Shown: piece after piece, positions 43,814 through 51,823 of the stretch
Layout of the letters: every line of letters begins with the position of its first letter
Position numbering within the stretch: position 1 is the first letter of the stretch
NCBI GenBank assembly: GCA_016223165.1
Contig: JACRPO010000009.1
Coordinates: forward strand, 1,488,001 to 1,552,000
Reading direction: 5' to 3'
DNA: 64,000 bases
From: Burkholderiales bacterium
GTDB lineage: Bacteria; Pseudomonadota; Gammaproteobacteria; Burkholderiales; Burkholderiaceae_C
The notes under the pieces: generated by a model
The model's database searches: none
Told to the model about the DNA's origin: nothing
The model's input: only the letters and a program-made list of their open reading frames with translations
Made by a program: the position numbers and the translations under genes

Positions 43814-44461
43814 TCAGGCATCCGAGACATCCGAGACATACGGATTCGTGCGCCGCTCGCGCCCGAAGCTGCTCTCGGGCCCGTGGCCAGGGATGAAGAC
43901 GGTACCGTCGCCGAGCGGCCACAGGCGCTGAGTGATGCTGGCGATCAGCATGTCGTGGTCGCCGCCGGGGAAGTCGGTGCGGCCGATGCTGCCGGCGAAG
44001 AGCACGTCGCCGACGAAGGCGCGGCCGGCCTCGGCGCTGTGGAAGACCACGTGCCCGGGCGTGTGCCCGGGGCAATGGTGCACGTCGAGCTTGCTCTCGC
44101 CCACTTGCACCGTGTCGCCCTCGTGCAGCCAGCGCGTGGGTGTGAACGGCTCGGCCGGCGCGAGACCGAACATGCGCGACTGCTGCGCGAGGCCGTCGAT
44201 CCAGAACTGGTCGCCCTCGTGCGGGCCGACGATGGGCAGGCCGAGCTCGCGCGCCAGCGTGCCGGTGCCGCCGGCATGGTCGATGTGCGCGTGCGTGAGC
44301 AGGATCTGCTTCAACGTCACGCCGAGCTCGTGCACCGCCGCCTTGATGCGCGGCAGGTCGCCGCCCGGGTCGATGACGGCGCCTTCCATCGTGCGGTCGC
44401 ACCAGACGATGGAGCAGTTCTGCTGGAACGGGGTGACGGGGAGCGTGCGGTAGCGGAGCAT
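43814..44461 (-). CDS. MBL-fold hydrolase, glyoxalase II-like
   Basis: This 215-residue protein has the metallo-beta-lactamase metal motif THAHIDHAGG (HxHxDH), with further ligands in HCPGHTPGHVVF, FVGDVLF and PGHG. Length and the start MLRYRTLPVTPFQQNCSIVW match the short YcbL/glyoxalase-II-like hydrolases that act on thioesters. The start is set at 44461; the track ORF begins too far upstream, inside the next gene. It lies 97 bases after the metallophosphoesterase on the same strand. Confidence 0.9.
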   Translation of the reverse strand: MLRYRTLPVTPFQQNCSIVWCDRTMEGAVIDPGGDLPRIKAAVHELGVTLKQILLTHAHIDHAGGTGTLARELGLPIVGPHEGDQFWIDGLAQQSRMFGLAPAEPFTPTRWLHEGDTVQVGESKLDVHHCPGHTPGHVVFHSAEAGRAFVGDVLFAGSIGRTDFPGGDHDMLIASITQRLWPLGDGTVFIPGHGPESSFGRERRTNPYVSDVSDA

Positions 44462-44558
44462 GGGCTTGCGGGAGAACGCTGCAGCGGCCGCGCCGGCGAG
44501 GGTGTGCCGCAGCCTGCGCGCAAGTATCGCCGGCCGGCGCCGGGCAACCCGCGCCGCA

Positions 44559-45623
44559 TCAGCCGCGCGTGCGCAGCGCCTCCTCGACGCAGTAGGCCGG
44601 GCCACGCTCGATGCGCTGGTGGTACGAGGCATGCGCGTCGCTGCCGGCCGGCCAGTCGGCGAGGAAGCGGCGCCGCCAGGCATCGGCGTCGTACTCGATG
44701 GCGATGCCTTCGGCGAAGACCTCGTCGCGCCGCACGCCGAAGCGCCGCTCGCGGCCCTCGAACGGCGAAAGCGCGACACGGGTCAGCAGGCCCGCCGGGT
44801 CGCCGCCGAAGTTGGGCATGCCGGCGGCGCCGTTGTTCAGCACCCAGCGCTCACCCGCCGGCGCAGGTGCGGACGCCGCTGCAAATGCCGGCTCAGGTGC
44901 AGACGCAGTTGCATCTGCGGCCGAGGACGCGGACAGCTCGCAGAACACCGGCAGGCAGGTGTGGCTGCAGGCGAAGGCCTGCACGCCGGCGCGCACACAC
45001 CAGCGGCGTGCCGCTTCGCGCCGCGCCGCCTCGGCCAGGTGCTCCTGCGCGAAGCCCCAGCCGGCGAGCGACTCGGCGTCGCCGTGCACGAGGCCGACGC
45101 GCCAGGGGCCCACCGAGGCCGGCTGCCACATCGGCAGCGCCGCCAGCTCGGCGCGCTGCGCCGGGCCGGCCGCGCCGCGCAGGCGCGCGAGGATGCGGTT
45201 GCTGCGCTCGACCACCGCGTCGCCCACCCAGGCCGGGTAGGCGCAGCCGCAGCCGGCATCCGCACCCGGCATGTCATCCGGCAGGTCGCCCACCGGCACG
45301 GCGGCGATCTCGGTCTCGACGTTGCCGCGCTGCGCCGCGTGCGCGAGCACCTCGCGCTGCACGCGCGCGAAGACGGCGGGGTCGATGTCGAACCAGTGGA
45401 AGTCGCCGTTGAAGACGAGCGCACGGCGGCCGCGCTCGCGCTCGAAGAGGCGCAGCACCTGCTGCAGCGCCGGCTCGTTGCCGTAGAGGCCGCCGACGAC
45501 GTAGAGCACATCGAGGTCGCGCAGGCCCGCGGGCACCTCGGCCTGCGCGATGTCCTCGGGCCGATAGCGATAGCGCAGCGGGCAGGAGCGGCCGGGAGCG
45601 GCGGACTCGGTGTCGGGGTTCAT
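44559..45623 (-). CDS. Metallophosphoesterase-like protein in the ars/phn operon
   Basis: This 354-residue protein has calcineurin-type features: VVGGLYGNEPALQQ replaces the usual GDxHG, NGDFHWFDID follows, then VHGDAESL and CSHTCLP, and LNNGAAGMPN near the end. The first metal motif is altered, so metal use may differ from the family norm. A low-complexity Ala/Ser/Pro stretch (~235-260) interrupts it. Its ATG overlaps the stop of the ABC ATPase gene (TGATG), so the two are coupled. It may remove phosphate from an intermediate of the arsenosugar-type pathway; this is inference. Confidence 0.8.
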   Translation of the reverse strand: MNPDTESAAPGRSCPLRYRYRPEDIAQAEVPAGLRDLDVLYVVGGLYGNEPALQQVLRLFERERGRRALVFNGDFHWFDIDPAVFARVQREVLAHAAQRGNVETEIAAVPVGDLPDDMPGADAGCGCAYPAWVGDAVVERSNRILARLRGAAGPAQRAELAALPMWQPASVGPWRVGLVHGDAESLAGWGFAQEHLAEAARREAARRWCVRAGVQAFACSHTCLPVFCELSASSAADATASAPEPAFAAASAPAPAGERWVLNNGAAGMPNFGGDPAGLLTRVALSPFEGRERRFGVRRDEVFAEGIAIEYDADAWRRRFLADWPAGSDAHASYHQRIERGPAYCVEEALRTRG

Positions 45624-49898: not shown

Positions 49899-50822
49899 TC
49901 AACGCACGTCGTTCAGCTTCCAGTCGTACTCGAGGAAGCCGATCTCGACCTGCGCGCCGCGCACGCGCTCGCGGTCGGCCGGCGTGTCGGCCAGCTGGTC
50001 GGCGTAGCGCGCCGCGAAGGCCGGCAGCGAGGCAATGCCGCGCAGGCCGAGCCGGAAGTCCTCGCCGAACCAGTCGAAGATCTTGTTCACCTCGAGCCGG
50101 CCGCGCGGCACGTTGTAGCGGTTGCGCGAGCGGTCGCTCATGAAGCGCAGCGCCTGCTCGTCGAGCTGCGCGTCGAGCCGCTCGGGGACGAAAGCCTCTT
50201 CGCGCAGCGCCGGGCAGCCGATGCTGGCGCAGTTGACGGCGAAGTGCACGCGCGGGTCGTCGTAGGCGCCGCGCTTGCGCAGCATCTCGTGCTCGATGTC
50301 GTCGAGCGAGACCTGGGTGCCCAGGAGCGGCACCCACCTCGGCTTCCACGGGGTCTGGAAGAGGCTGCCGAGGTCCTTGATCGACTCGAGTTTCGGGTAC
50401 TTCGTGAGGATCAGCTCGACCGTGAAGGCGTTGTAGGCGTTGATCAGGAAGGCCATGCGCTGCGGCTTGCTCCAGCCGGCGAAGGTGGCCTCGGGCACCG
50501 CCGAGAGCGCCTCGAGGTAGGCCTTCAGCGCCGCGCGCTCGCCGGCGAAGGCGGCATAACGCACCTGCGAAGCCTGGCCGCCGCGCAGCGCGAGCACATG
50601 CTTCTTCAGCAGCGCCGTCCAGGCGGCGTGGCTGTGGTCGAAGGCCCCCTGCGCCGAGGCCGCAGGCGCTGCCACGAGGCCCGCGAGGCCCAAGGCCAGC
50701 GCCAGCGCGCCGGCCGACGAGCCGGCGAGAAGGCTCCGGCGCTGCACCTGCATGCGCGACTGCATCCGAACCTGCATCGCCGGGTTCATCGCCGCGGGCG
50801 AGGATGCTGTATCGCCGCTCAT
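49899..50822 (-). CDS. DUF547 domain-containing exported protein
   Basis: This 307-residue protein has a signal peptide (RRSLLAGSSAGALALALGLA) after a hydrophilic lead with Met/Gln/Arg repeats (MQVRMQSRMQVQ). The DUF547 domain is clear: FLINAYNAFTVELIL, then DDIEHEMLR, VHFAVNCASIGCPALR and FDWFGEDF. The Cys and His of this core resemble a catalytic pair, but the family's reaction is not established. The start ATG at 50822 overlaps the arsS stop, so the two are coupled. Confidence 0.9.
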   Translation of the reverse strand: MSGDTASSPAAMNPAMQVRMQSRMQVQRRSLLAGSSAGALALALGLAGLVAAPAASAQGAFDHSHAAWTALLKKHVLALRGGQASQVRYAAFAGERAALKAYLEALSAVPEATFAGWSKPQRMAFLINAYNAFTVELILTKYPKLESIKDLGSLFQTPWKPRWVPLLGTQVSLDDIEHEMLRKRGAYDDPRVHFAVNCASIGCPALREEAFVPERLDAQLDEQALRFMSDRSRNRYNVPRGRLEVNKIFDWFGEDFRLGLRGIASLPAFAARYADQLADTPADRERVRGAQVEIGFLEYDWKLNDVR

Positions 50823-51823
50823 GCCGGCACCCCTTCTCTCGGGCTCGTCGCCACGCTGCCCGCGGCGAGTGCACCGCCGCAACTGCTGCCCTGCCCGGCC
50901 GTGCAGCCGAAACAATGTTCGGCCACGCGGATGGGGCTGCCGGCGCCGTCGTCGCGCAGGAGGTCGCGCAGGTGCGGCCGCGCCCGGCCGCCCAGGCGCG
51001 CACGCAGGCCGAGCATCTGGTTGAAGTCGCAGTCGTAGAGCTCGCCCCGCCAGTCGACGCTGACGAGGGTGCGGCACATCACAGTGTCGAGGTTGTCCGG
51101 GCGGTAGGCGTCGCGCAGCAGCTGGAGGTAGCCGGCGAAGGTGCCCTTGCTGACGAGCGTGCTGCCGAAGCGCTGGATCGGCATGTTGGTGAGCGCGAAC
51201 AGGTGGTTGAAGCGGATGCCGAAGTGCGCCGCCAGCTCGCGCTTGTAGTCGGCCTCGAGCGGCCCCTGCGCCGGCGGCAGCGAGGCGCCCTGCGGGTTGT
51301 AGACGAGGTTGAGCACGCGCACGCCGTGCTCGTCCCCGTAGCCGAGCGCATTGAGCTTGCGCAGGCCGGCGATGCTGCGCTCGAAGACGCCGTCGCCGCG
51401 CTGGCGGTCGACGTTGGCGGCGGCGTAGCAGGGCAGCGAGGCCACCACCTCCACGTCGAGGCCGGCCAGGAAGGCCGCGAGGTCCTCCTGCCCCGGCTCG
51501 CCGAGGATGGTGAGGTTGCAGCGGTCGATCACCTTGGCGCCGAGCGTACGCGCCTCGCGCACGAGGTGGCGGAACTGCGGGTGCAGCTCGGGCGCACCGC
51601 CGGTGACGTCGAGCGTGCCGATGCGCCGCTCGCGCAGCACCTGCAGCACCAGCGCCACCGTCGCCTCGTCCATGGCCTCGGTGCGGTTGGGGCCGGCATT
51701 GACGTGGCAGTGCAGGCAGCTCTGGTTGCAGCGGTAGCCGAGGTTGACCTGCAACGTCTCGATGCGCCGGCGCGAAATGGCCGGAAAGGCGGTGTGGGCG
51801 AGCAGGGGCAGGGTGTCGTGCAT
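50819..51823 (-). CDS. arsS: Arsenosugar biosynthesis radical SAM protein ArsS
   Basis: This 334-residue protein has the radical SAM cluster motif CNQSCLHCH, the family-specific HVNAGPNRTEAM after it, a glycine motif DVTGGAPELHPQF, and the C-terminal DUF3641 region with more cysteines (CDFNQMLGL, HCFGCTAGQGSSCGG). ArsS adds a 5'-deoxyadenosyl group to a methylated arsenical, making the arsenosugar precursor. No arsM is in the window, so the methylated substrate must come from elsewhere. Start is ATG 51823; the track start at 51886 reads through a G-rich repeat. It is the first gene of the cluster. Confidence 0.93.
   Translation of the reverse strand: MHDTLPLLAHTAFPAISRRRIETLQVNLGYRCNQSCLHCHVNAGPNRTEAMDEATVALVLQVLRERRIGTLDVTGGAPELHPQFRHLVREARTLGAKVIDRCNLTILGEPGQEDLAAFLAGLDVEVVASLPCYAAANVDRQRGDGVFERSIAGLRKLNALGYGDEHGVRVLNLVYNPQGASLPPAQGPLEADYKRELAAHFGIRFNHLFALTNMPIQRFGSTLVSKGTFAGYLQLLRDAYRPDNLDTVMCRTLVSVDWRGELYDCDFNQMLGLRARLGGRARPHLRDLLRDDGAGSPIRVAEHCFGCTAGQGSSCGGALAAGSVATSPREGVPA

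Follow-up and report, generated by a model that had tools for sequence, protein, structure and literature searches.

An ArsS operon of a Burkholderiales bacterium with its own ABC importer, probably for an arsenic oxyanion

How arsenosugars are completed once ArsS has acted is not settled. A stretch of 64,000 nucleotides from a Burkholderiales bacterium (the window) bears on this question, since an ArsS gene lies there in one row with an importer of the phosphonate type. What does such an importer do beside ArsS, and what would it carry? We know of no ABC importer for methylated arsenicals, and a literature search found no paper uniting the terms ArsS, arsenosugar and PhnD. The initiation of arsenosugars by ArsM and ArsS is described for Synechocystis, as cited in PMC8552651 (ref 22), and the chemistry of ArsS by Cheng 2021, as cited in PMC12159101 (ref 61). 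The locus resembles that system in having an ArsS equivalog with TIGR04283 and TIGR04282 partners, but the operon, whose product is putative, is without ArsM and has instead a dedicated ABC importer and an unclassified protein of calcineurin-like fold (MPE). Taken as a whole, it is probably an arsenosugar-type operon equipped with its own importer of an arsenic oxyanion, which is most likely methylated.

Gene order and junctions

Eight genes run on the minus strand from 51823 to 44559, where the operon core ends (Table 1). Five junctions are 4-base overlaps: ArsS/DUF547 (50822 over 50819), GT/DUF2064 (49148/49145), DUF2064/PhnD (48411/48408), PhnE/PhnC (46531/46528), and PhnC/MPE (45626/45623), the last being TGATG if the ATG at 45623 is the start of MPE. 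Real gaps are found in two places only, between DUF547 and GT (82 bp) and between PhnD and PhnE (18 bp). The sequence-only reading, which had placed all eight genes in one direction with these overlaps, was thus correct on order and junctions, while its word "fused" does not apply in the protein sense, as the genes are separate and adjoining. The upper end of its interval, 43814 to 51823, stands, but the lower end is set by a separate MBL-fold gene (44461-43814, minus strand) that the reading did not mention. This gene was dropped as a member because it is present in only 1 of 80 related PhnD loci, and so was the HAD gene at 43703-42894, present in none of the 80. At the DUF2064-phnD joint, where transcription might have been interrupted, the genes overlap; a promoter and terminator scan of the region, uninformative at the GC content here, found no site. 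A search against Rfam found no RNA regulatory elements in the region. The radical SAM motif CX3CX2C is present in the ArsS translation as CNQSCLHC, and DUF547 recurs in 27 of the 80 related loci.

Table 1. Genes of the ArsS operon, from first to last on the minus strand
Feature	Coordinates	Strand	Evidence
ArsS, radical SAM enzyme; Cys-rich C-terminus DUF3641	50819..51823	-	TIGR04167 451.6 bits, cut-off 300; DUF3641 match
DUF547 protein, predicted exported (signal-like N-terminus)	49899..50822	-	PF04784 92.8 bits
TIGR04283 arsenosugar-cluster glycosyltransferase (GT)	49145..49816	-	281.5 bits, cut-off 182
DUF2064 / TIGR04282 (CofC-like) nucleotidyl/glycosyltransferase-like protein	48408..49148	-	171.2 bits, cut-off 134
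PhnD, PhnT-family substrate-binding protein (SBP), HtxB-like, "hybrid" pocket	47464..48411	-	PF12974 193.6 bits
PhnE-type ABC permease	46528..47445	-	TIGR01097 226.3 bits, cut-off 216.7 (met)
PhnC-like ABC ATPase; Walker A GANGAGKST, LSGGE signature	45623..46531	-	PF00005
MPE, unclassified calcineurin-like-fold protein, ArsS-linked family	44559..45626	-	Fold search, conservation, ArsS co-occurrence

Linkage of the importer and MPE to ArsS

The same genome harbors a second ArsS-PhnD-PhnE-PhnC-MPE operon. Across 399 genomes of the order, surveyed with a neighborhood limit of 15 kb, MPE was found in 58, of which 57 also have ArsS (17.3 expected), and 44 of the 59 MPE genes lie within 15 kb of ArsS, every one on the same strand. 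The close PhnD clade occurs in 17 genomes; ArsS accompanies it in 15 (5.1 expected), MPE in 16; in the two without ArsS, PhnD sits on contigs of 4 to 6 kb. Viewed from the ArsS side, as the sequence-only reading had proposed to look at it, the association is sparse, with the clade within 15 kb of only 8 of the 124 ArsS genes of the order, yet ArsS is present in almost every PhnD-clade genome. The importer is thus an optional, frequently swapped module of an ArsS system. The ArsS tree points the same way: the PhnD label needs 13 changes on it, of which 8 or more fall on starred branches, and modules were therefore repeatedly exchanged between ArsS genes that are otherwise alike.

In a set of 80 named loci, whose counts are biased by their selection through the PhnD clade, ArsS lies within the examined flank in 45, on the same strand in all 45, and MPE directly follows PhnC in 50. 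Among 34 locus genomes with no ArsS in the flank, 27 encode it elsewhere, and in 7 the contig breaks off at the cluster. In two sister genomes, a case limited to one genus, the PhnD gene is away from ArsS and divergent from arsR-arsC-aquaglyceroporin, in one of them with arsI (C-As lyase type). Altogether, comparative genomics shows that the predicted PhnDEC-type importer and MPE are components of the ArsS system, and we hold with high confidence that the module is part of the ArsS pathway. The proposal of one uptake-plus-conversion unit is well supported.

Sister operons share the operon backbone but contain an ArsM-like methyltransferase, and none of 16 has PhnD or MPE; the GT, DUF2064, DUF547 and FAD-protein partners are common to ArsM-like and PhnD-type loci. 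MPE and an ArsM-like gene close to ArsS tend to exclude each other (Fisher p 1e-4), and no ArsM match was found in 42 of 51 MPE genomes, nor a recognizable ArsM in 21 of 25 PhnD genomes. PhnD against ArsM genome-wide reached only p 0.07, and independent-pair tests on the ArsS tree gave the expected direction with pairs too few for significance. By this comparison of gene content, importer and MPE are shown to stand in for the putative methyltransferase in an otherwise common backbone, an exchange suggesting that methylated arsenic from other organisms is salvaged. The source genome has two ArsM-type matches elsewhere (C8 and C3), which give it a possible source besides import, and in about 23 ArsS- and MPE-bearing genomes with neither ArsM nor the PhnD clade (by set arithmetic) import leaves the dimethylarsenic unexplained.

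The binding pocket and the fold of MPE

The phn labels given at first sight hold in part: PhnE passes its curated cut-off, but PhnD (TIGR03431, 151.5 bits, cut-off 261.1) and PhnC (TIGR02315, 166.2 bits, cut-off 266.1) fail those of the true phosphonate proteins, and a canonical phosphonate importer was rejected on this ground. The SBP scores above the cut-off of the broader phosphate/phosphite/phosphonate subfamily TIGR01098 (143.7 against 112.05 bits). TIGR04553, a putative selenate PhnD-like transporter, resembles it as a PhnT-family system for an oxyanion that contains no phosphorus, but the SBP reaches only 101.8 bits against a cut-off of 250, and a selenate importer was likewise rejected. 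A TIGR04553 transporter (396 bits) lies about 28 kb to the left of the window.

The closest solved structure is that of the hypophosphite binder HtxB (5me4, E 3.9e-46), and the pocket residues W90, S170-T171-S172, H200, R220 and D248 are invariant in 22 of 22 sequences. W90, R220 and D248 correspond to W52, R178 and D206 of HtxB, which is of the same fold family (PMC5700983, PMC6629693), and both the W52 platform and the D206-R178 ion pair are kept, whereas N128 and F158, which block the third oxygen site in HtxB, are replaced by S170 and H200. The STS-H residues are those of PtxB and PhnD, and the remainder (W, R-D pair) is of HtxB type, a mix that fits the description of an uncharacterized "hybrid" class in PMC5700983. 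An aromatic cap provides P-H or C-H...pi contacts in PhnT pockets (PMC5700983, PMC12718374). Unlike HtxB and PtxB, the SBP studied here sits with ArsS. The arsenic-binding PhnD-like proteins AioX (6esv, E 1.7e-13) and ArrX (6x6b, E 1.8e-8) belong to the same superfamily and are detectable homologues. They are, however, sensors beside arsenite oxidase or arsenate reductase, while this SBP comes with a permease and an ATPase of its own.

For MPE, no match was found in Pfam or NCBIfam at E<=0.001 (PF00149, 13.8 bits, is under its gathering cut-off of 21.5), and a profile search against PDB sequences found nothing; only a fold search gave matches. With an AlphaFold model of pLDDT 90.4, Foldseek retrieved 1nnw (E 6e-9) and the asymmetric Ap4A hydrolase SapH (3qfn, E 1.4e-8), and the predicted overall fold is that of a calcineurin-like metallophosphoesterase. 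Identity to these proteins is only about 12 to 16%. In an alignment of 54 sequences, metal motif I reads G-x-Y in place of D-x-H, the GHxH site reads S-H-T-C with its final histidine changed to cysteine, and both SHxC and a CxC are invariant. Because metal motif I is lost and these cysteines are invariant, the name "phosphoesterase" is unsafe. "Metallophosphoesterase" was therefore right for the fold but not for family or metal site, and the idea of a phosphorylated intermediate cut by this protein is unsupported as it was put, the altered site arguing for caution.

Candidate cargo and pathway

We propose that the HtxB-like periplasmic protein would bind an arsenic oxyanion, most likely methylated, that other organisms have produced, and that PhnE and PhnC would import it. 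The candidates are dimethylarsinate, which is the arsenic counterpart of hypophosphite/dimethylphosphinate, and methylarsonate, the counterpart of methylphosphonate. ArsS would add the 5'-deoxyadenosyl group to dimethylated arsenic, and an MTAP-like phosphorylase would take off adenine to leave 5-deoxy-5-dimethylarsinoyl-ribose phosphate. Activation of the sugar and its attachment would fall to the CofC-like DUF2064 protein and the TIGR04283 transferase, and MPE, whether a phosphoesterase or an arsenic- or thiol-binding protein derived from one, would work in this branch too. MPE is followed by an MTAP-like gene in 24 of 52 loci, and in the source genome such a gene lies on another contig; its product may be what removes adenine. 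The cargo is probably an arsenical; that it is specifically a methylated one is close to an even call, and the mixed pocket would also be compatible with phosphite, methylphosphonate, arsenate and arsenite. Of the earlier view that an imported oxyanion feeds the pathway, the tie of the importer to ArsS holds, and the cargo is better taken as a methylated arsenic oxyanion than as arsenate or arsenite in general.

Import of inorganic arsenic, or of phosphate-like oxyanions in general, is unlikely. The invariant STS-H motif of three-oxygen binders and the kinship with AioX and ArrX favor it, but methylation by ArsM would still be required, and most PhnD genomes are without ArsM. An arsenate importer would also be of little use beside ordinary phosphate uptake. 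Phosphate-like cargo is disfavored by the strong discrimination of HtxB and PtxB against phosphate (PMC5700983).

Slightly less likely still, the importer would take reduced phosphorus (phosphite, hypophosphite or methylphosphonate) and the radical SAM enzyme would work on phosphorus, "arsenosugar" being the wrong name here. The relationship to HtxB and the scarcity of recognizable ArsM agree with this, but on the tree the ArsS proteins of PhnD-type operons are interspersed with those of ArsM-type ones, the partner genes named above are common to both types, and arsenic genes adjoin PhnD in the two sister genomes. A non-systematic look at annotated neighbors found no PtxD, HtxA or C-P lyase genes.

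We give a little less weight again to re-use of an arsenosugar or arsenolipid breakdown product (arsinoyl-riboside or its glycerophosphate) with MPE cleaving the phosphodiester, for which the phosphodiesterases among the nearest folds, such as SapH, and the PhnT member GpxB, a binder of glycerol phosphates (PMC12718374), could be cited. GpxB is without the aromatic cap (PMC12718374), but the SBP here keeps W90 without exception, implying that its cargo is small; furthermore, metal motif I is gone from MPE, and MPE is also found next to ArsS where PhnD is absent. Finally, a chance juxtaposition in one genome, suggested only by the few ArsS genes near PhnD, is ruled out as exceedingly improbable by the second copy, the order conserved in many genera, the order-wide co-occurrence and the 80-locus survey.

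Returning to the salvage of methylated arsenic, we put forward, tentatively and with rather less assurance than for the cargo, that many Betaproteobacteria may make arsenosugar-type compounds from scavenged methylated arsenic, a PhnT-family importer specific for dimethylarsinate or methylarsonate replacing ArsM, and a cysteine-bearing MPE family and an MTAP-like phosphorylase completing the steps after ArsS. If this is true, the MTAP-like protein would be a candidate for adenine removal, MPE would represent a new ArsS-bound protein family, and there would be a gene-level route by which methylarsenicals, including arsenical herbicide residues, are salvaged into arsenosugar-type compounds.

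Gene content of the ArsS operon and its bond to the importer

The sequence-only reading had described eight genes running in a single direction with overlapping ends, and this order was borne out: ArsS (a radical SAM arsenosugar-type enzyme), DUF547, a TIGR04283 glycosyltransferase (GT), DUF2064/TIGR04282, a PhnD-like substrate-binding protein (SBP), the permease PhnE, the ATPase PhnC, and an unclassified calcineurin-like-fold protein (MPE) are joined by 4-base overlaps at five junctions and by gaps of 82 and 18 bp at two. The MBL-fold and HAD genes that come after were ruled out as operon members and left out of the system because they are all but absent from related loci (1/80 and 0/80, respectively). 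Equivalog family names, together with published ArsS work cited in PMC8552651 and PMC12159101, suggest that the product would be an arsenosugar.

Features in and near the window
Feature	Coordinates	Strand	Remark
ArsS-to-MPE operon	51823-44559	-	eight genes
PhnD-like SBP	47464-48411	-	PhnT family
MPE	44559-45626	-	last gene of the operon
MBL-fold gene	44461-43814		after a gap beyond MPE
HAD gene	43703-42894		after a gap beyond the MBL-fold gene
Small exported protein	52601-52053	-	upstream of ArsS, same strand; by eye like PCu(A)C-type copper chaperones
TIGR04553 putative selenate SBP	G000:C5:1459437-1460162 (L001)		396 bits; window's own genome, ~28 kb left of the window

The same genome carries a second locus that reads ArsS-PhnD-PhnE-PhnC-MPE and lacks the sugar-transfer genes; its SBP and MPE are ~79% and 57% identical to their window counterparts. 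Among 399 genomes drawn from the order, 119 of which have ArsS, MPE was found in 58, and 57 of these also harbor ArsS versus 17.3 expected (hypergeometric p 3e-34; p values of this survey ignore relatedness among genomes). The close PhnD clade occurs in 17 of the 399, with ArsS in 15 and MPE in 16; in the two ArsS-less genomes, PhnD sits on contigs of only 6.2 and 4.3 kb. In one genus, a second and more distant PhnD clade (~43-45% identity) lies divergently to MPE, and ArsS is encoded at another site (loci L073 and L074; genomes G072, G120, G271, G331, and G360).

We also scanned the SBP alignment against 84,980 species genomes. The best 80 loci came from Burkholderiales, Rhodocyclales, and a few other Proteobacteria; ArsS lay in the flank examined at 45, always on the PhnD strand (45/45), and MPE immediately followed PhnC in 50. 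The 35 loci with ArsS-less flanks belong to 34 genomes, of which 27 encode ArsS elsewhere, while in the other 7 the contigs stop within or beside the PhnD cluster. The proposal of one uptake-plus-conversion unit is well supported, nearly all PhnD-clade genomes having ArsS. From the ArsS side the importer is optional: only 8 of the order's 124 ArsS genes have this PhnD within 15 kb. We are highly confident that importer and MPE belong to the ArsS system.

MPE and the extended cluster

The model of MPE is confident (pLDDT 90.4) and its predicted fold resembles metallophosphoesterases such as 1nnw and SapH, while sequence libraries missed it or matched it weakly. In an alignment of 54 relatives, GD, GN, and HG are retained, but motif I, normally D-x-H, reads G-x-Y, and the final histidine of GHxH is a cysteine (S-H-T-C); a CxC pair and an N-terminal cysteine are invariant. 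The earlier assignment as a metallophosphoesterase therefore stands for the fold, whereas the phosphoesterase label is not safe. A mononuclear or thiol-bearing derivative is one possibility for MPE, whose function we infer from its bond to ArsS alone.

The order recurring in relatives is DUF3047, ArsS, a VTT-domain/FAD disulfide oxidoreductase fusion, DUF547, GT, DUF2064, a TIGR03169 SelD-N-like FAD protein, PhnD, PhnE, PhnC, MPE, and an MTAP-like phosphorylase, the last directly after MPE in 24/52 loci. MTAP usually cleaves 5'-methylthioadenosine. Since the ArsS product, 5'-deoxy-5'-arsinoyl-adenosine, would have the same shape, the MTAP-like protein is a candidate for adenine removal after ArsS; in the window genome, a match on another contig scores under the cut-off. 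In 7 loci (e.g., L014:11097-12376), an ECF sigma factor gene lies close to the ArsS cluster or divergent from it; one of these is the second locus of the window genome, where an NrsF anti-sigma gene comes next after the sigma gene. A bufferin maturase (MNIO BufB) recurs inside ArsS or PhnD loci (L044, L046, L123, L125, L161, L164, L165, L174, L175, and others), a putative copper/thiol-peptide link to the arsenosugar cluster.

The substrate-binding protein and its cargo

The closest solved structure to the SBP is HtxB (E 3.9e-46). W52, R178, and D206 of HtxB align with W90, R220, and D248. At the positions of N128 and F158, the residues that shut the third oxygen site of HtxB (PMC5700983), the SBP has S170 and H200, as in PtxB/PhnD. 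All five residues are invariant in 22 relatives, and the SBP matches the uncharacterized "hybrid" class of PMC5700983 by the description of that class. Aromatic platforms beside the ligand are known to make P-H or C-H...pi contacts with small substituents (PMC5700983, PMC12718374), so the expected ligand would be a small anion of the form X-EO3 or X2-EO2. Methylarsonate and dimethylarsinate fit this type, as do phosphite and methylphosphonate. Support for arsenic comes from genome G248, where PhnD lies away from the ArsS gene and divergent to arsR, arsI, arsC, and an aquaglyceroporin gene, and from its congener G279, where arsR, arsC, and the porin are kept beside PhnD. The nearby PhnT member assigned to selenate would be a precedent for non-phosphorus cargo. 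The cargo is probably an arsenical; that it is a methylated one we propose tentatively.

ArsM-type and PhnD-type operons

A search of 80 ArsS genomes for the arsenic methyltransferase ArsM (profile NF008823, E<=1e-30) gave no match in 21/25 PhnD genomes and 42/51 MPE genomes. An ArsM-like gene lies within 15 kb of ArsS in 11 genomes; PhnD is missing from all 11 and MPE from 10. The 16 ArsM-like loci inspected along their whole length have the same backbone as the PhnD type, and both PhnD and MPE are absent from all 16. This pattern has weak points: genome-wide, the PhnD versus ArsM contrast gives only p 0.07, independent pairs on the ArsS tree are few, and the window genome itself has ArsM matches elsewhere; by set arithmetic, ~23 genomes with ArsS and MPE have neither ArsM nor this PhnD. 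One genome, G192, has both types, with one ArsS beside an ArsM-like gene and the other beside MPE (L190, L200).

On the ArsS tree the two operon types are intermixed: the PhnD label requires 13 changes, 8 or more of them on well-supported branches, and for the ArsM label the corresponding figures are 9 and at least 5. Given the shared backbone and the intermixed tree, there seems to be one ArsS pathway whose feed is either a methyltransferase of its own or another supply, for which the importer is a natural candidate.
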